From IMG/VR virus record IMGVR_UViG_3300000547_000196, positions 21,637-72,019 of that record: a stretch of DNA of 50,383 bases; one strand, 5' to 3'. Shown in pieces: positions 21,988 to 50,383 of this stretch. Origin of the DNA: a virus. Numbering within the stretch: the first letter of the stretch is position 1; every line of letters begins with the position of its first letter. A program made the translations under genes and the position numbers. Under the pieces are notes generated by a model, which saw only the letters and a program-made list of their open reading frames with translations, had not been told where the DNA came from and did no database searches.

Positions 21988-21994
21988 TATTTAT
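21988..21994 (-). promoter_or_regulatory. late-promoter motif ATAAATA
   Basis: Minus-strand CTAATAAATATTTC followed by AAAGGAG and the ATG at 21970. It lies at the end of the UvsE gene and can give the coiled-coil gene late expression. Confidence 0.6.
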
Positions 21995-23040
21995 TAGGCT
22001 GCCTTGCGTTTGCTTTCCTGCCAATAATCATATAAGTCACGTGAAGCAAGATTCTTTTGTTTAGCCTCGACCATTATGTCACTGTATGGCAAGAAAGATA
22101 ATGCCCAATCGTTACAAGCTGAATTCCACATATAATCAGAATGAGCACGAAGTTTCTGTTTCTTGTAACCCTGCTCTAGCAGACATGCCATATCAGGCTG
22201 TTGACTGTCATCGTGCCATTCCAGTATGTCTTCCTTTGAAAGGGAATAATGCATAGCAGGACGAACACCTCGCCAGCTATCAACAACTCGTTTAAATCTA
22301 TCATCTGAAGGCTGAATATATTCCCCAGTTCGAACCCAATGATGATGAATATCTAGAACAAGGGCAACATCGTCAACAAGTTCCAGTGAAGCATCTAAAC
22401 CCCAACTCATTTCGTCGTTTTCGATGGTAATAGAATTTCTTGCTTCTGGTGACAGCCGAGGCAGAACTTTCTTAATACCCCTAGGGCCTTGACGACCTGA
22501 GATATGAACATTGCATTTGAAGTCTTGAAACTGTTTACCGAAGCCCATCCAACGAATCATATCGACGTGATATTCAAATTCTTCTATCGAACGTTCTACT
22601 ATGCCAGGCGTATCACTAGCAAGAACAGTAAACTGACCAGGATGCATTGAAACACGAACATCAAGACTGCGAGCAGCCGCTCCTGCCTTGGAAAACTCTC
22701 TTTCGCAGTAGTCTCTAACATCGCTTTTCCGCCAAAAGTATCTCCAAGTTGGCTCAGTATACACAGGTAAGCAATCACTGCCCAGTCTAACCATTCGCAA
22801 GTTTTCTGGCAAAGTGCCTGCATAGTCTATCAGCCTTTTATATGATTCAATATTATGAACCATTAAGTCCCATAGTCGCTGTTCAGCATCTTCTTGAGTC
22901 TGGCGGTTAAGCCAAGCCACTGTAGTAGCCCTTGTATTGAGAGGGCGCTGCGATTCTTCTAACAGTTTTTTCTTTTTAGATTGGTCTGGGTCAAGATACT
23001 TACAAGCAAAACCTAGACGCTGCACTGATTGATCAAACAT
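21994..23040 (-). CDS. uvsE: UV-damage endonuclease UvsE/UVDE
   Basis: TIM-barrel endonuclease that nicks DNA 5' of UV photoproducts. The 348-residue protein shows the family order: RLGFACKYL at the start, YNIESYKRL-like helix, MVRLGSDCLPV, VRVSMHPGQFTVLAS (metal His), NVHISGRQG, ITIENDEMSWG, and VLDIHHHWV with several metal-binding His. UvsE is found in several marine phages in place of T4 DenV. The start overlaps the stop of the preceding 36-residue gene (TAATG). Confidence 0.94.
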   Translation of the reverse strand: MFDQSVQRLGFACKYLDPDQSKKKKLLEESQRPLNTRATTVAWLNRQTQEDAEQRLWDLMVHNIESYKRLIDYAGTLPENLRMVRLGSDCLPVYTEPTWRYFWRKSDVRDYCEREFSKAGAAARSLDVRVSMHPGQFTVLASDTPGIVERSIEEFEYHVDMIRWMGFGKQFQDFKCNVHISGRQGPRGIKKVLPRLSPEARNSITIENDEMSWGLDASLELVDDVALVLDIHHHWVRTGEYIQPSDDRFKRVVDSWRGVRPAMHYSLSKEDILEWHDDSQQPDMACLLEQGYKKQKLRAHSDYMWNSACNDWALSFLPYSDIMVEAKQKNLASRDLYDYWQESKRKAA

Positions 23041-34293: not shown

Positions 34294-34405
34294 AGACAAA
34301 GTGTGCGAAAAGATATGGGACGAGTCTAGTCTTGTTTGTACTCTAGGAGTAGGAGCAGCCGTAGGCTCGCTTGTTATGGCTGTAATCGTTCTTATTGTTA
34401 TTTAG
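34280..34405 (+). CDS. very small membrane protein, 41 aa
   Basis: Read directly: ATG at 34280 or 34283, behind AAGGA, overlapping the preceding stop. The product MEIRDKVCEKIWDESSLVCT ends in one hydrophobic span (LGVGAAVGSLVMAVIVLIVI). It is the third membrane protein in a row and overlaps the convergent cyclase stop by 8 nt. Three short membrane proteins in one coupled operon suggest a membrane complex. Confidence 0.6.
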   Translation: MMEIRDKVCEKIWDESSLVCTLGVGAAVGSLVMAVIVLIVI

Positions 34406-36452
34406 AATCTGCTATAAACACGCCGTTCCAGTCTCGAGGTAAATCCTGCTTTGCCATAAAGTCACAGCGAGCCTGCCACATTTCATAGTAAGCAGTCATT
34501 CTGTCGTCAAATTCTGTTTTTAGATCTTCGCATAATGCCCTTGCTCTGTCGAACTTCTGTGCCTGATACAATTTGTGCATACGATTGTGTTCTTCCTGTG
34601 CAAGCAAATAGGCGCCTATATCAACACCTTCTGTATCTAACACTGTGTAAATGCCAATGCCATAACTCTTGCCTTTTACAGCAAGATCATCTACCTTAAG
34701 GAAGAAAAAGTCTTCCGCACACTGTTTTACTGTGTCTTCTCCGACAAGAAGTAGACATCCGTATTCCTTACACTTTGATTCAATTCTTGCGGCAGTAGAG
34801 ACTGCGTCCCCCAAAACATCATATGAGTGTCGTTTTGTAGAACCCATTTCTCCGAGATAGCCAACACCACTGTTAATGCCAGCGCCCATACCAACAGGAG
34901 GGCGTCCTTCTTGAGTAATTTTGTCATTGAATTTCTCCACGGCTCGTATCATTGCCAAACCTGTTTCTACTGCGGTGTGCGGATGATCGTCATCTTCAAG
35001 CGGAGCACCGTGTATGTGCATACTTGCATCACCTATGTATTTTATTATCATACCGTTTCTTTCAATCACAGGCTCTGTTATGGCATCCATATAGCCATTC
35101 ATTAGCGCAGTCAATCCTTTTACATCGTCGCCAAACGATTCACCCAGAGGCGTGAATCCTCGCAAGTCTGAGAACACAATAGAAATATCTTGTTTTGTGC
35201 CTTCCTTGACAAGCGCGGGATTTTCCTGTAGCAGTTTGACAACCGCAGGTGATGCATAGCCTGCAAACTGTTTCTTGATTGCCTGTTTCTCTCTAAACTC
35301 TTTCACAAAGCGAAGGAATACAGAGTGCAAGCCAACTAACACTAGAGCAATAACAGCCATAGTGCCGTCAAGCAGATAAAGGTGATTTGTCCAAGCCCAA
35401 TGCACGCCATAAGCCGCGCCAGCACCTAACATAATCATTCCCAAGCCTACCGTCCAGTATGGTGTAAACCTACCTAGAAGAACTACTGCTAATCCTAGAA
35501 CCAGTGTGCCGGCAAGTTCTGCTTGAAATGCCCAGTATGGTCTTTCTATCTGTTCTCCGTCTATGAGAGTCTGCAGTGTAACAGCAGCAGGTTCATAGTT
35601 GTATCGTGGACCTGTAGGTGATGCTATTACACCACCTATTCCCGCAGCCTGTGCGCCTATTATAACAGTCTTGCCTTGAAAACGAGAAAAGTCCTGTTCT
35701 GCTGCGGATATCGTAGGAAACTCTTTGTTCCAGCGCAGCCATATCCTTCCGTTGGGATCTGTGTTTATGACGGGGAAGCCAGGCACTCTGACAGCTTCTA
35801 TGCCTGCGCCCTGTTCTTTTACCTGGTAGGAAGGCTGTTGAGTTGCTACTCGAATAACTTCTATGCCCAGTGATGGAAACACTTCATTGTCTACTCGCAT
35901 GAGCAGAGGCACTCTTCTTACTACACCGTCTCGTTCAGGCACGGTGTTAATAACACCTACACCATCTGCTGATTCGGCCAGTTCGGGTATAGGTCCTAGC
36001 ACGCCCTGCCATTGATAGAGGTAAGGAACAGGATCGCCTATTTTCGCAATGCCTCTAGGCACTGCATTCTGAGATTCACCTGCAATGCCTGTCTGTGCTA
36101 TTACTACACCATTGTTTTCTAGTGTTTCTGCGAGATAGTCATCACCGCCCAGTCTATCTGTTTCTGAAAAAAGCACAGGTATGACAATTACTCCCGCACC
36201 GTCACTACGCAATTGCCATACAATGTCTGCTATTGTTTCTCTGCTCCAGGGCCACTGACCATAGCGTTCTATTGCAGCTTCGTCTATTGCGACAACGCCT
36301 ATGTCTTGAGACTGTTGAACAGTATCTGTCTGTTGCAGTAAATCAAACTGCTTTAGTCGAAGAGTTTCAACTACAAAGCCATCTGAGTAGTGAACAAATA
36401 AAACCACTGCAAGGGTAAGAAACGCAGTAGTCCAATGTGTTAGCCATTTCAT
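34398..36452 (-). CDS. CHASE2-domain class III nucleotide (adenylate) cyclase
   Basis: Membrane receptor cyclase of 684 residues. An N-terminal anchor (about 8-22) leads to an extracytoplasmic CHASE2 sensor (about 30-300), three spans (about 312-328, 333-350, 362-380) and a cytoplasmic class III catalytic domain (about 420-600). Catalytic residues: metal Asp429 (FSDLRGFT) and Asp475 (KYIGDASM); adenine-selecting Lys471 and Asp545 fit ATP, thus cAMP; transition-state Arg556. The usual Asn of the VNxAxR motif is Ser552 (AVSTAAR), which may lower activity. It is the last gene behind the curli-like operon and starts 5 nt after a late motif, with no Shine-Dalgarno. A complete receptor cyclase in a phage is remarkable. 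Confidence 0.93.
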   Translation of the reverse strand: MKWLTHWTTAFLTLAVVLFVHYSDGFVVETLRLKQFDLLQQTDTVQQSQDIGVVAIDEAAIERYGQWPWSRETIADIVWQLRSDGAGVIVIPVLFSETDRLGGDDYLAETLENNGVVIAQTGIAGESQNAVPRGIAKIGDPVPYLYQWQGVLGPIPELAESADGVGVINTVPERDGVVRRVPLLMRVDNEVFPSLGIEVIRVATQQPSYQVKEQGAGIEAVRVPGFPVINTDPNGRIWLRWNKEFPTISAAEQDFSRFQGKTVIIGAQAAGIGGVIASPTGPRYNYEPAAVTLQTLIDGEQIERPYWAFQAELAGTLVLGLAVVLLGRFTPYWTVGLGMIMLGAGAAYGVHWAWTNHLYLLDGTMAVIALVLVGLHSVFLRFVKEFREKQAIKKQFAGYASPAVVKLLQENPALVKEGTKQDISIVFSDLRGFTPLGESFGDDVKGLTALMNGYMDAITEPVIERNGMIIKYIGDASMHIHGAPLEDDDHPHTAVETGLAMIRAVEKFNDKITQEGRPPVGMGAGINSGVGYLGEMGSTKRHSYDVLGDAVSTAARIESKCKEYGCLLLVGEDTVKQCAEDFFFLKVDDLAVKGKSYGIGIYTVLDTEGVDIGAYLLAQEEHNRMHKLYQAQKFDRARALCEDLKTEFDDRMTAYYEMWQARCDFMAKQDLPRDWNGVFIADSK

Positions 36453-36457
36453 AATGA

Positions 36458-36464
36458 TATTTAG
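36458..36464 (-). promoter_or_regulatory. late-like motif CTAAATA, 5 nt from ATG
   Basis: Minus-strand CTAAATATCATTATG. It predicts a leaderless message for the cyclase. One base off the TATAAATA core. Confidence 0.5.
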
Positions 36465-36790
36465 CGTTGATCTATGCTTAGATCGCAGCCCGCAGGATTA
36501 GTGCAGAATTCCTGTATGGAAATAGAGTTTGATGGGGAGTTCTGCTTTATATCTAACGCAATGCCACCGCCACCTGTAAGATTCTGCAGAGAAAACACAG
36601 CACTTGCACCGTTTGATTGTGTGCTATTAACAGAGTGACCATTGCCTATCACAGAACCTTGCAGATAGTTATCGCCACTTGACTGCAACACACTCATTTC
36701 AAAGTCGTTGCCCTGCACAGTTACATCGACATCGCTTGCATTAGCGACTTTGATCAACCCTAATATCGTTAGTGCCAATACCAGTTTCAT
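36461..36790 (-). CDS. minor curlin-like secreted protein (CsgB-like)
   Basis: Start at the ATG at 36790, giving 109 residues: signal peptide (MKLVLALTILGLIKVANA) and a mature protein rich in Asn, Ser, Gln and Gly. The repeated pattern S-x-L-Q-x-x-G-D-N and x-x-Q-x-N is curlin-like (VLQSSGDNYLQGSVIGN, NSTQSNGASAVF), and near the end NSPSNSISIQEF. Compared with CsgA it has fewer and less regular repeats, as expected for a nucleator. A late-like motif lies 5 nt before the ATG. It overlaps the FecR gene by 50 nt. Confidence 0.75.
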   Translation of the reverse strand: MKLVLALTILGLIKVANASDVDVTVQGNDFEMSVLQSSGDNYLQGSVIGNGHSVNSTQSNGASAVFSLQNLTGGGGIALDIKQNSPSNSISIQEFCTNPAGCDLSIDQR

Positions 36791-37880
36791 AACCGTATTT
36801 AACAAAACTGCCTTGAAGAATATCTATAGAATAACCGTGAGATTCACTTAAACGAAACTCAAATATATTGCCTGCTGCATCCTGTCGCCTTACAACAAAC
36901 TCTGGTGGAGGCGCTTCGTAGTAAATACCTGTTTCTTCGTCTAAACCTTCGGGTCTATCCCCGAACACATTCTGCGAAGCAAATTCATCTCCAAGCGCAT
37001 TAGCGGCCTGGTTTTGTAATCGCTCCATAAGTTCAAAAATGTCTACTTCAAGTATATTGCCTGTTTCGCCTAACTCAGTGTCCCAAATACCTTCTATGCT
37101 TTCTGACAGTTTATCTGCATCAAGTTCGTCAAACTCTAGATAATCCACATCCAGTTCTGCGGCCTGCTCTTGCATTTCTCTTCGTGTGGCATCGTATTCA
37201 GATTCATTTCTTACAATAAGCATATTGCCTAACTGATCGGGAGCTATATCTAACACGACAGGCTTGCTAGGCGCTTGGCTAGAAGTAGAAACGGTGGTTG
37301 TTTCAAATGCCTGATTCATTATGACTACGCCTGCGTCTGTTTCTACAGATATTTCTCCTACAAAGCATTCAAGCGCAGCACGAGGATGACTCTGTCTGCA
37401 GGAGGGTAAAAGCGTTATAGTTGAACCGCCTATTTCATTAACAATCATTGCGAAATCTGTGCCGCGCACACCAATAGTAGCCGACGGTGTTTCTATATTA
37501 ACATTTTGTCTATACTTTTTTGCTATTTGGCCGCTTGCATACTTTACCGTGCCAAGACTTGCTTTTAGGCTGATAGATCCTTTATCTTGTGCAGGATCAA
37601 AAACAAACTCGTCTATTACAAGTCGAGAATGTTCTGTAACATCTACTCTAGTGTCATCGCGAAAATCAATACGCATTCTGCCTTTGGCAGTTACAGCAAC
37701 ATCATATGATTCTATAGACACACCAAGTGAACCTTCTATGGTTTCTGAATCTCGTTCAATAGCAGCAGAGCCTGAAATTTCTGATATTGCGCCTATGGCA
37801 GCCCAACTAGTATTAATCAGACTGAATAATATCAACAGCAGCGTTATCGCCTTCAAATGTTGCATCAACTGTGTTATCAT
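36741..37880 (-). CDS. FecR-domain secreted protein, 379 aa
   Basis: N-terminal signal peptide (LKAITLLLILFSLINTSWA) followed by a FecR domain (about 45-165: GSAAIERDSETIEGSLGVSI, RMRIDFRDDTRVDVTEHSRL, GSISLKASLGTVKY, ATIGVRGTDFAMIV). The C-terminal half is acidic and unlike any domain I know. Periplasmic FecR-domain proteins often accompany surface-polymer systems and sigma-factor signalling. The ATG at 37880 has GTGGAA before it; a second ATG at 37865 gives the same signal peptide. It lies between two curlin-like genes, overlapping both. Confidence 0.85.
   Translation of the reverse strand: MITQLMQHLKAITLLLILFSLINTSWAAIGAISEISGSAAIERDSETIEGSLGVSIESYDVAVTAKGRMRIDFRDDTRVDVTEHSRLVIDEFVFDPAQDKGSISLKASLGTVKYASGQIAKKYRQNVNIETPSATIGVRGTDFAMIVNEIGGSTITLLPSCRQSHPRAALECFVGEISVETDAGVVIMNQAFETTTVSTSSQAPSKPVVLDIAPDQLGNMLIVRNESEYDATRREMQEQAAELDVDYLEFDELDADKLSESIEGIWDTELGETGNILEVDIFELMERLQNQAANALGDEFASQNVFGDRPEGLDEETGIYYEAPPPEFVVRRQDAAGNIFEFRLSESHGYSIDILQGSFVKYGYETGIGTNDIRVDQSR
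36796..36802 (-). promoter_or_regulatory. late-like motif TTAAATA, 5 nt from ATG
   Basis: Minus-strand TTAAATACGGTTATG before the CsgB-like start at 36790. It predicts a leaderless message inside the FecR reading frame. Confidence 0.5.
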
Positions 37881-38499
37881 TTATTCCACTCTGTGTAATA
37901 TTGTATACACCGCCGCCGCCAGTTACATCAAGATTTAGACTATGCCCATTAACATCTCCATCACCGTCGATGTCTATGTTAACAGTATTGCCTCCAGCGA
38001 GACTGGCAGAGTTATCAATCACAACAGTAGCATCGGCATTTACACCGTCTACTTCTACATCAACAACATTAGAATCTCCATCTACAGCAAGTGATGCTAC
38101 AAGATTGGAAGCGTCTGCAGTTTCGCCTATTCTAATGTCAATGTCTGCTCCGTTGCCATTTACAGTAACATCAGCAGTAACAGTTTCACAGGTAGCAGCA
38201 TTACCACTGTCACACATCAAATCTACGGAGTTGTTGTTTCCTGTTAGGTTGATAGTGCCTGTATAGGTATTACCGTTTATCTGTGCAGCAATGACATTAT
38301 TATCACCGACTTGATCTATGTCAAAGGTCATGTCGTCACCAGTGAGTATCATAGCCTGCTCTGCAGTTCCAGCAACGTTATCAGTGCCGTCTTGCGTAAT
38401 GTCAAGATCTAGGTTATCACCTATCTGCTGAACATATATTTCGTTTGCGAATACCGCACTAGCGAGAAGTATCAGTGATAGTGTCAGTGTTCTTTTCAT
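37813..38499 (-). CDS. curlin-like secreted repeat protein (CsgA-like)
   Basis: Start at the ATG at 38499 behind AAGGAA, giving 228 residues; the longer frame to 38541 is unlikely. Signal peptide MKRTLTLSLILLASAVFA, then QIGDN, ITQDGTDN, IDQVGDNN and ITQSGINDN, which follow the curlin consensus (Q-x-G-x-x-N). In between are Asp/Asn-rich repeats (VDGDSNVVDVEVDGVNAD) that could form parallel beta-sheet or bind calcium. The protein is longer and more acidic than E. coli CsgA. It overlaps CsgG by 41 nt and FecR by 68 nt, so the genes are tightly coupled. Confidence 0.82.
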   Translation of the reverse strand: MKRTLTLSLILLASAVFANEIYVQQIGDNLDLDITQDGTDNVAGTAEQAMILTGDDMTFDIDQVGDNNVIAAQINGNTYTGTINLTGNNNSVDLMCDSGNAATCETVTADVTVNGNGADIDIRIGETADASNLVASLAVDGDSNVVDVEVDGVNADATVVIDNSASLAGGNTVNIDIDGDGDVNGHSLNLDVTGGGGVYNITQSGINDNTVDATFEGDNAAVDIIQSD

Positions 38500-39295
38500 T
38501 TTCCTTGCCCTCTTTGAATTGCCAGAGATCTTTTTCTTCACCCTGATAGACGAGTTCTATCACTCCGGCTTCTATTGCTGCCCTCACAGCATAGTTCACA
38601 GGTTCGTTTGCTGTCATGCCCATTTCAGTTTCAACGAGTTCTGTGCCCATATCAAAAAAACGAAACAGATTAGCGCCTGTTTTCGTCGAAAGTATTGTTT
38701 TTTCTGTTGCTACAGAAATCAATACTCTCCCAGTGTTGACACTTACTATTCGCATTACCACAGTGACCGTGTCAACTCTATATTCTGTGTCTACGCCAAT
38801 GCCTAGATATCTTGCTCCTGCACCGCCTGTGACTACATTTGCATCATAGCCTACTATACCGCCTTCCAGTATCAAACCAGCAAAACGCATAGGTTGTAGT
38901 TCAGTATCATCTTCTCCGTAGTTCTCTCTCGTATTCCTTATTAACTGACGTTCTTTTACAAGATTGTCTAGGCCTACTCTTTCGACTACATCAAACCAGG
39001 AACCATTGCCTATATCTTGTAAACTTTTAATGACCCATACTTCACTTCCCTGTGTTACAGCAGTTGATAGACTTGCTACTCGCTGATTAGGCTGTCTCTG
39101 ACCTGTTTTGTCTGCAAAGTCATAAACTGCTATTGTTATTTTAGGACCGTCCAGTTCGGGCACATCTGCCAGTTGTTCTCGCATAGGTGCAGGCTGTGTT
39201 TCTGCAGGGGATGACTGAAACCTTTCTTCTCCAGTTGCAGCACATCCTATTAGAAACGCCAAACAAAATGCAATACAAGCGAATGATCCTTTCAA
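38459..39295 (-). CDS. csgG: CsgG, curli secretion pore lipoprotein
   Basis: Outer-membrane lipoprotein that forms the nonameric curli export pore. The lipobox ends at Cys18 (FLIGC). Conserved CsgG sequence is clear: ITIAVYDFADKTGQ, VTQGSEVWVIKSL, WFDVVERVGLDNLVKERQLI, then GGIVGYDANVVTGGAGARYL and GIGVDTEYRVDTVTVVMRIV, TEKTILS and FFDMGTELVETEMG. At 278 residues it matches E. coli CsgG (277). Every element of the pore and transmembrane hairpins appears present. It overlaps CsgF by 4 nt. One of the firmest calls in the window. Confidence 0.96.
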   Translation of the reverse strand: MKGSFACIAFCLAFLIGCAATGEERFQSSPAETQPAPMREQLADVPELDGPKITIAVYDFADKTGQRQPNQRVASLSTAVTQGSEVWVIKSLQDIGNGSWFDVVERVGLDNLVKERQLIRNTRENYGEDDTELQPMRFAGLILEGGIVGYDANVVTGGAGARYLGIGVDTEYRVDTVTVVMRIVSVNTGRVLISVATEKTILSTKTGANLFRFFDMGTELVETEMGMTANEPVNYAVRAAIEAGVIELVYQGEEKDLWQFKEGKENEKNTDTITDTSR

Positions 39296-41408: not shown

Positions 41409-41483
41409 TGGAGGTGATGGCAGGATTCGAACCTGCGACTCGCAGATCATGAATCTGCTGTTCTACCGCTGAACTACATCACC
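41409..41483 (-). tRNA. tRNA with anticodon CAT (Met or Ile2)
   Basis: Acceptor GGTGATG, anticodon stem GCAGA/TCTGC, loop TTCATGA, T-loop TTCGAAT, CCA encoded. Without initiator features (no C1-A72 pair, no GGG/CCC anticodon stem). It could be elongator Met, or Ile2 if TilS (encoded at 49457-50083) modifies C34 to lysidine. Confidence 0.92.
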
Positions 41484-41487
41484 TTTG

Positions 41488-41559
41488 AGCCTAGGACAGG
41501 ATTCGAACCTGCATATAAACAATTTAAAGTCGTTTGCGTAGACATTCCGCCATCTAGGC
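41488..41559 (-). tRNA. aberrant tRNA, anticodon TTA by structure (ochre suppressor or decayed)
   Basis: Cloverleaf-like: acceptor GCCTAGA with one mismatch, D-arm GCG/CGC, anticodon stem AACGA/TTGTT, T-loop TTCGAAT. The 7-nt anticodon loop is CTTTAAA, so positions 34-36 are TTA, which reads the stop codon TAA. The variable loop has only 5 nt, so it is not a Leu-type tRNA. CCA is not encoded, unlike its neighbours. It may be a Leu(TAA)-derived tRNA shifted by one base. Confidence 0.6.
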
Positions 41560-48910: not shown

Positions 48911-49082
48911 TTTGTTTCGCCTCTGAATTTAGGGCACCTGTCCAAAACTGTTGCGCACTTTTCTGCACAGTTTCAAGCCAATGATAATATAACTCTGTGC
49001 CTCTGTCAATATCCTTCTCATCAGGTGTAATCAGTTCTTTTGCCTCTTCCGGCGTCATTTCGATTTCAGTTTTAATCTTCAT
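48894..49082 (-). CDS. hypothetical protein, 62 aa
   Basis: Start taken as the ATG at 49082 (MKIKTEIEMTPEEAKELITP); the upstream TTG is less likely. Acidic and helical, with WLETVQKSAQQFWTGAL. Overlaps the preceding gene by 11 nt. Unrecognised. Confidence 0.62.
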   Translation of the reverse strand: MKIKTEIEMTPEEAKELITPDEKDIDRGTELYYHWLETVQKSAQQFWTGALNSEAKQNDGQG

Positions 49083-49485
49083 CTTTAACAAACTCTCCGT
49101 CTTTTACCCGATGAACGACATGATAACCAGACGAGCGAATATAAGATCTACCGCCGTCTATCATGCTTCCGTTTTCAAATTGCTTATAATCGTGTCTACT
49201 ACGACTATACTCCCAGTCACCGTCGTCATTTACTACCAAACCAAACTCTAATTCTTCTACTCGATCTGCATTCGTGATCATAATTCTGTTAGATCTATCT
49301 ACAAACAAACCAAAGTATCTATTGCCGAACTCCGGATGAGCCGTTTCTCTATAGAATACATCAACAGGCATGTCAACATTATTAATGTCTGTAGTGCAGA
49401 CATACTTAACTGATACTCCGTCCTTTTCGCTGTAGTGTTCAATTACTCTTTCTGTGTCAAACACAGGAGAATGCTTGATAGTCAT
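49072..49485 (-). CDS. hypothetical protein, 137 aa
   Basis: Beta-rich, acidic 137-residue protein (VSVKYVCTTDINNVDMPVDV, NRYFGLFVDRSNRIMITNAD, DGDWEYSRSRHDYKQFENGS). No domain recognised. Overlaps TilS by 29 nt. SD AAGGTG lies about 7 nt before the ATG. Confidence 0.65.
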   Translation of the reverse strand: MTIKHSPVFDTERVIEHYSEKDGVSVKYVCTTDINNVDMPVDVFYRETAHPEFGNRYFGLFVDRSNRIMITNADRVEELEFGLVVNDDGDWEYSRSRHDYKQFENGSMIDGGRSYIRSSGYHVVHRVKDGEFVKDED

Positions 49486-50083
49486 CGTTAAGCACCTTTT
49501 TCTTAATGACCTTTTTCAGCCCTGGATTTACTCGTAGAGCATGAGGCATCAATTCATGTCTAATATAGTTTCTAGTATAGCAGGTATCTTGGTTGCTATC
49601 ATCCTCTACCCAGGGCACAGAATTCATTTCTGCCCAAAGTCTAAGATTGCGTTTTTCTACAAGACGAAAGGGTCTAATAACATCTCGCCTGCGATAGGGG
49701 ATGATCTTGCCTTCGCCGTGTAGTGAGCTCCAAAGCCAAGTTTCTACGCAGTCGTTGAGGTGATGACAGGTTACAACAGGGGCGCCGCGCTGATCTGCAA
49801 TTTCATCAAGTTTTTTGTAGCGCTCGTTGCGCCAGTGTTCTTCTTGACTAACACCCTGTGGTTTTGCTTCCTTGAGCACTCCGTACCACAAAACAATGTC
49901 TCTCTGTCGACAATACTCCGTTAGAAAAATTCCAGCACGACGACCATGCTTGGTGCCGTGATCAAAATAAACGGCCTCTACATTATGGCGACGCGATAGA
50001 AAATCAAGCACCGCCATTGAATCTACACCGCCTGAGCAGGCTACGATTATTTTTCGAGGAAGTTTGCCTTGCAGTTTGATCAT
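49457..50083 (-). CDS. tilS: TilS-like tRNA(Ile)-lysidine synthetase, short form
   Basis: PP-loop ATPase that adds lysine to C34 of tRNA-Ile2 (anticodon CAT). The 208-residue protein has SGGVDSM (17-23), TCHHLNDCVETWLWSSL, RPFRLVEKRNLRLWAEMNSV, and WVEDDSNQDTCYTRNYIRHE then LMPHALRVNPGL. That is the catalytic N-domain; the C-terminal tRNA-binding domains of E. coli TilS (432 residues) are missing, as in many short bacterial forms. The phage also encodes a tRNA with anticodon CAT (41409-41483), a natural substrate candidate. Start ATG 6 nt after the -10, so leaderless. Confidence 0.9.
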   Translation of the reverse strand: MIKLQGKLPRKIIVACSGGVDSMAVLDFLSRRHNVEAVYFDHGTKHGRRAGIFLTEYCRQRDIVLWYGVLKEAKPQGVSQEEHWRNERYKKLDEIADQRGAPVVTCHHLNDCVETWLWSSLHGEGKIIPYRRRDVIRPFRLVEKRNLRLWAEMNSVPWVEDDSNQDTCYTRNYIRHELMPHALRVNPGLKKVIKKKVLNDDYQAFSCV

Positions 50084-50089
50084 ATTATT

Positions 50090-50118
50090 AGTATATGCGA
50101 ACTGCGGCAGGAAGTCAA
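50090..50118 (-). promoter_or_regulatory. sigma70-like promoter
   Basis: Minus-strand TTGACT (50113-50118), 17 nt, TATACT (50090-50095). Drives TilS with a predicted leaderless start at 50083. Confidence 0.65.
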
Positions 50119-50383
50119 CCTATAATATACCACCACACAGGCAAGCCCACTACAATATTTACAGGGAATGTAACAGCAATGCTCATAGTCAAATATTTTC
50201 CTATCTCTGCGGCAGGCACTGCTTTGCTTAGGATTGCAGGAGCAACGATATAACTAGCACTTGCCATTAACAGTGTAGTAAGATAAAGATCGCCTGTAGT
50301 AAGACCAAGAGCAACACCTGCGGCATATCCTAATCCACCATTAATCCAAGGTAGTAGGAGAGCAAGTGACACAAGACGAACAT
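50115..50383 (-). CDS. SbtA-like sodium-dependent bicarbonate transporter (5' part outside window)
   Basis: Only the C-terminal 88 residues are visible; the frame continues past base 50383. They are wholly membrane-type and match the C-terminal part of SbtA/DUF897 transporters: GGLGYAAGVALGLTTGDLYL, TTLLMASASYIVAPAILSKA and SIAVTFPVNIVVGLPVWWYI. In that family the ASASYIA-P and TFPFNxxxGIPL motifs belong to the last two helices. A phage-encoded bicarbonate transporter would help the infected cell import inorganic carbon. The assignment rests on a fragment. Confidence 0.8.
   Translation of the reverse strand, partial: VRLVSLALLLPWINGGLGYAAGVALGLTTGDLYLTTLLMASASYIVAPAILSKAVPAAEIGKYLTMSIAVTFPVNIVVGLPVWWYIIG

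Follow-up and report, generated by a model that had tools for sequence, protein, structure and literature searches.

A complete SbtA-family transporter gene in a phage genome, a probable sodium-driven bicarbonate importer

A 50,383-nucleotide stretch of virus DNA (the window) ends in part of a gene resembling the bicarbonate transporter SbtA. Does a phage really carry a complete gene of this family, and what could it do in a virus with no visible photosynthesis genes? The original prediction was that the C-terminal 88 residues of such a protein, with SbtA motifs, lie at the window edge. On translation of the window, a minus-strand frame at 50115–50381 gave 88 open codons and a stop, and the motifs ASASYIVAP and VTFPVNIVVGLP were both present in it. 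This 3′ part (C-terminal 88–89 residues) of the gene, designated sbt, occupies window positions 50115–50383 on the minus strand. The window is cut from the interior (bases 21637–72019, G000:C1) of a virus record of 106,249 bp; the contig runs on past its edge, and so the 5′ part could be read beyond it, where it had been predicted to lie. The complete gene (L002:752–1693, minus strand; bases 71751–72692 of the record, equivalent to window positions 50115–51056) reaches 673 bases past the window end, starts with ATG, stops at window position 50115 and encodes 313 amino acids, with two ambiguous bases inside.

A second IMG/VR contig of the same phage (L006) contained the same locus intact and without ambiguities, A215 and D226 standing at the two ambiguous positions of the first copy. 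Identity between this contig and the record was 99.98% over 9.7 kb and 99.99% over 8.3 kb, spanning sbt. Since sbt was complete beyond the edge and the second contig had the same locus, the window edge posed no assembly problem, and a contig-edge artefact was rejected, the edge being that of the window only. An assembly chimera, which the prediction had named as a possible refutation, or host contamination might be suspected from the two ambiguous bases, but the second contig read through the same junctions at 99.98% identity and phage genes flanked sbt on both sides, so that such an origin of sbt in this record is extremely improbable.

The whole protein matched the Pfam family PF05982 (Sbt_1, of which DUF897 is presumably the older name) with E=3.1e-79 and 267 bits against a cut-off of 27, as the HMM search suggested with the prediction was meant to establish. 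The match, which by its score is far beyond chance, spanned residues 10–312 of 313 and model positions 3–307 of 308. A profile of sbt relatives, from a set that excluded plasmid-derived sequences, matched only SbtA among PDB structures (E=8e-48). An AlphaFold model had a pLDDT of 92 and a pTM of 0.89. SbtA ranked first for this model in Foldseek, and by VIA-align the best structural match was SbtA 8zor (Z 38.4, 2.2 Å over 305 residues), SbtA structures scoring Z 30–38 and the next family Z 23. Bile-acid symporters, PIN/LYCHOS and NhaA-like antiporters had the broad fold in common but scored well below SbtA, which disposed of the concern that the complete protein might fall in another transporter family. 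No viral fold in the model collection BFVD was similar (best E 0.14). Pfam, PDB profile, Foldseek and VIA-align all agreed with the SbtA-like membership first proposed: the phage protein is, by sequence and model, a full-length member of the Sbt_1/SbtA family with a predicted ten-helix, 5+5 SbtA-type fold.

The gene lies in a tight run on one strand. The sbt ATG overlapped the stop codon of a dUTPase gene (dut) by one base (TAATG), and a TilS-like gene started 31 bases past the sbt stop. The latter (49457–50083, minus strand) encoded a 208-aa protein with a tRNA(Ile)-lysidine synthetase domain (ATP_bind_3, PF01171, E=1.7e-30; TIGR02432 lysidine_TilS_N above cut-off), and a 137-aa ORF (49072–49485, minus strand) overlapping its end extended the run. 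Genes for a T4-type DNA polymerase, ribonucleotide reductase (RNR), DNA ligase and tail-fibre proteins were found elsewhere in the record, which, as predicted, is a phage, of T4-like type. The gene is encoded within a phage genome and homologous to a cellular metabolic gene, and an auxiliary metabolic gene for carbon uptake is a reasonable, though provisional, reading of it.

Two tRNAs were noted in the window. One (41487–41559, minus strand, ARAGORN) has the anticodon UUA, which would read the stop UAA, although the phage ends more of its genes with UAA than with any other stop (58 of 108 counted on the minus strand); it is possibly a degenerate tRNA-Leu. The other (41409–41483, minus strand) has the anticodon CAU and, in a phage with a TilS-like enzyme, may be an isoleucine tRNA modified by TilS rather than a tRNA-Met. 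A UvdE-type UV endonuclease gene was located at 21994–23040 (minus strand).

Host-like genes in the record encoded DnaK, DnaJ, Hsp20, Clp ATPase, ClpS, heme oxygenase, peptide deformylase and GMP reductase/IMP dehydrogenase, the proteostasis genes and heme oxygenase lying at L002:10145–13483 and L004:14331–17875. The DNA polymerase was nearest that of Sinorhizobium phage Phosso (50%), with Agrobacterium phage Atu_ph07 at 47%, and pointed to alphaproteobacterial phages, sbt to Paracoccaceae, DnaK to Betaproteobacteria (closest, 70%, 24 genomes compared) and a cyclase, described below, to Methylophilales and Pelagibacter phages. The host was left at Pseudomonadota, within which it probably belongs.

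To ask how widely viruses carry such genes, two collections were searched. Relatives of sbt were absent from 50,697 phage records (INPHARED). Scans of 2.9 million IMG/VR contigs yielded ten other records with sbt or relatives, a lower bound because pattern scans favour conserved motifs: the second contig of the same phage, L107 (49%), L097 (45%), L011, L012–L015, L016 and L098. Several of these records are clearly phages: in L016, sbt comes after a T4-type terminase gene with a tail-sheath gene upstream, a terminase also occurred in the records of L012 and L013, and L097 had putative T4 gp32, gp59 and gp33 genes (by eye). The record of L013 (G004), 518,643 bp long with sbt, terminase and peptide deformylase, is a probable jumbo phage. 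A viral Sbt transporter was not found reported in the open-access literature, which leaves room for a report in other sources; the phage protein adds a member to a known family, and that several unrelated phages carry such genes seems not to have been described before.

Some of these loci had features of their own. In the phage contig L098 (7598–8895), sbt is of Flavobacteriaceae type and is broken across two reading frames; the small gene upstream resembled, by eye, the gene that precedes sbt in Bacteroidota (L069), as though both genes had been captured from a host as one cassette. Viral sbt of betaproteobacterial type lay near TerC and AhpC/peroxiredoxin genes (L012, scanned; L014, by eye), and on an Aureimonas plasmid (L009) sbt comes after TerC and an OxyR-like gene; some members of the Sbt family may form part of a module for stress or metals. 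A link to oxidative stress (LysR/OxyR, TerC, AhpC), real for part of the family, was rejected for the present gene: none of these stood beside it, and P-II, not stress genes, was the commonest neighbour of bacterial relatives.

Viral sbt genes occupied five separate positions among bacterial relatives in a first tree and four in a second (L107 added, L098 left out), both built without Thiomicrospira Sbt sequences. Well-supported branches forced these positions apart; therefore, phages captured sbt repeatedly. The present gene grouped with L097, L107 and two Paracoccaceae metagenome genomes (MAGs) with support 99/98, its exact place being less sure because its branch is long. L012–L015 sat among Betaproteobacteria and L098 among Flavobacteriaceae. 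The nearest cellular relatives (L017 and L018) were 46–47% identical; in the family of L017, 109 of 394 genomes had an sbt relative, none closer than 47%, and L017 was still the best.

Among L012–L015 synonymous change was saturated whereas nonsynonymous change was 13–20%, indicating purifying selection. This bears on the possibility that sbt is captured host cargo that now does little or nothing for the phage. The rarity of the gene (some ten IMG/VR records detected in 2.9 million contigs), the split copy in L098 and the long branch of the present gene are all consistent with cargo. Such a reading is nevertheless quite improbable, given that the present gene is intact in two contigs within a tight gene run and keeps the positions that are invariant in its clade, and that selection acts on L012–L015.

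Could the protein bind bicarbonate as SbtA does? In a docked model of Synechocystis SbtA, HCO3− contacts were S114, Y140, S324 and S327, and mutation of any of them reduced transport to about 10–40% (PMC8352866). The phage protein keeps two of the four, S103 (equivalent to S114) and S268 (S324), with L129 replacing Y140 and V271 replacing S327. At the Na+ site, a crossover of helices 4 and 9 formed mainly by main chain, the sequence appears compatible with binding, having YGS for FGA and S266 for S322. The equivalents of S114, S322 and S324 were invariant among aligned residues in 86 relatives. The replacement of Y140 and S327 was common to all 86 of these short relatives, including those beside a P-II gene; it thus marks the short clade as against cyanobacterial SbtA, and would not by itself exclude HCO3− transport. 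Unique to the subclade of the present gene, L107, L097 and the two Paracoccaceae MAGs were N102 and T104 beside the site, in a GSNST motif where the other relatives show V or I, then A in most cases.

Gene neighbours were informative on substrate. A P-II gene was present near 38 of the best 80 bacterial relatives, nearly always directly downstream on the same strand, and a carbonic anhydrase gene near 13, which for the clade at large points to bicarbonate. Neither L017 nor L018, the nearest relatives from cells, had a P-II neighbour. The literature on non-cyanobacterial Sbt function is split. Two Sbt proteins of Thiomicrospira pelophila rescue E. coli that lacks carbonic anhydrase and increase its internal DIC (PMC12628692), an SbtA-like protein of Labrenzia gave no uptake in E. 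coli (PMC4275256), and Shewanella SO_3758, argued to be an exporter, alters formate tolerance in two hosts (PMC12093963).

The Shewanella result lends some weight to a transporter with the same fold and Na+ coupling that naturally moves formate or some other small carboxylate, perhaps outwards. Peptide deformylase, encoded in the same record, releases formate, for which an outlet could help during heavy translation, and the altered pocket with its unique N102 and T104 would suit a changed substrate. We consider this unlikely: the P-II and carbonic anhydrase neighbours of the wider clade point to bicarbonate instead, and deformylase was found in only 2 of the 11 virus records with sbt, most of which are fragments. 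Import of bicarbonate by the phage Sbt is our best guess.

To see if the phages bring partners for bicarbonate use, their records were searched. No match to P-II/SbtB, the regulator that the prediction had suggested looking for, was obtained in the 11 virus records (fragments) by a family-level search that did detect it in 13 of the 14 genomes used as controls; the phage Sbt could make use of a P-II from the host. Carbonic anhydrase was likewise not found in the sbt-bearing virus records (fragments), nor was a photosystem reaction-centre gene, in keeping with the predicted lack of photosynthesis genes, the present record being perhaps incomplete. Given these results, the phage would rely on host enzymes.

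One candidate partner was a CHASE2 and class III adenylate/guanylate cyclase (34398–36452, minus strand), 14 kb away in the same genome. Were it an HCO3− sensor, the transporter might feed a bicarbonate-responsive signal rather than carboxylations. However, on alignment the phage cyclase has Asp where CyaC (structures 1wc0/1wc1) has Thr, which we take to be the mark of the bicarbonate-responsive type, and phages Melnitz and HTVC008M have the same cyclase, yet a search of their records gave no sbt. A signalling role is therefore very improbable, and the cyclase was rejected as a bicarbonate-activated partner because its residue pattern does not support one. The order of the CsgG-like, FecR-like and CHASE2-cyclase genes (34398–39295, minus strand) was as in Methylophilales phage Melnitz; the cyclase was 62% identical to that of Melnitz and 44% to that of Pelagibacter phage HTVC008M, and apparently has Ser in place of the usual transition-state Asn.

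The reading we prefer, with a probability of about 0.6, is that sbt encodes a complete, probably functional phage-borne Sbt_1 member, most likely a Na+-driven importer of HCO3− into the host. During infection the protein would enter the host inner membrane as a ten-helix, 5+5 inverted-repeat elevator symporter; the inward Na+ gradient would drive its elevator cycle, and cytoplasmic HCO3− would rise. Cells consume bicarbonate in anaplerosis and in making carbamoyl phosphate, purines and fatty acids. The most economical use of the imported bicarbonate would be in carboxylations feeding phage DNA and protein synthesis, namely carbamoyl phosphate for pyrimidines, purine synthesis and anaplerosis, in a host among the Pseudomonadota for which CO2 is in limiting supply. 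The position of sbt beside dut fits nucleotide supply without proving it.

Carbon auxiliary genes of phages are known mainly from cyanophages and photosynthesis. Since captures of sbt were repeated and independent, its carriage is a pattern and not a single oddity, and phages may adjust host inorganic-carbon supply even without photosynthesis genes. If the preferred reading is true, phages in ordinary heterotrophs can be held back by a shortage of bicarbonate. More speculatively, large T4-like phages infecting heterotrophs among the Pseudomonadota and Bacteroidota might have captured Sbt repeatedly as an unreported auxiliary class, one group (the present phage, L107 and L097, with alphaproteobacterial-type sbt) having in its GSNST pocket a substrate or coupling of its own, and such phages might govern how hosts without photosynthesis balance inorganic carbon or formate; we hold this broader view only tentatively. 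The unique pocket residues make the phage protein a useful probe of the substrate of short Sbt proteins, on which published results conflict.

Among known systems, phage transporter auxiliary genes and viral carbonic anhydrase, the latter known from a giant virus (PMC13037468), resemble sbt as viral genes for nutrient or inorganic-carbon handling but differ in that no viral Sbt report was found in the open-access literature. The Sbt and Sbt-CS proteins of Thiomicrospira pelophila are, like the phage protein, non-cyanobacterial Sbt members, and DIC accumulation in E. coli is theirs (PMC12628692). Cyanobacterial SbtA (Slr1512, TC 2.A.83; PDB 7CYE, 7EGL, 8ZOR) has the same Pfam family and ten-helix 5+5 fold, and its S114, S322 and S324 have equivalents in the phage protein; the two are only about 22% identical by structure, Y140 and S327 are replaced in the phage protein, and an SbtB/P-II gene was not found in the phage record. 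Compared with the short bacterial Sbt_1 proteins (about 320 aa; Paracoccaceae, Comamonadaceae, Bacteroidota, Cyanobacteriota), the present copy is phage-borne beside dut and tilS and is without the P-II or LysR neighbours common in bacteria, but it shares their length, their short loop (loop length alone being no criterion of function, PMC4275256) and their pocket pattern.
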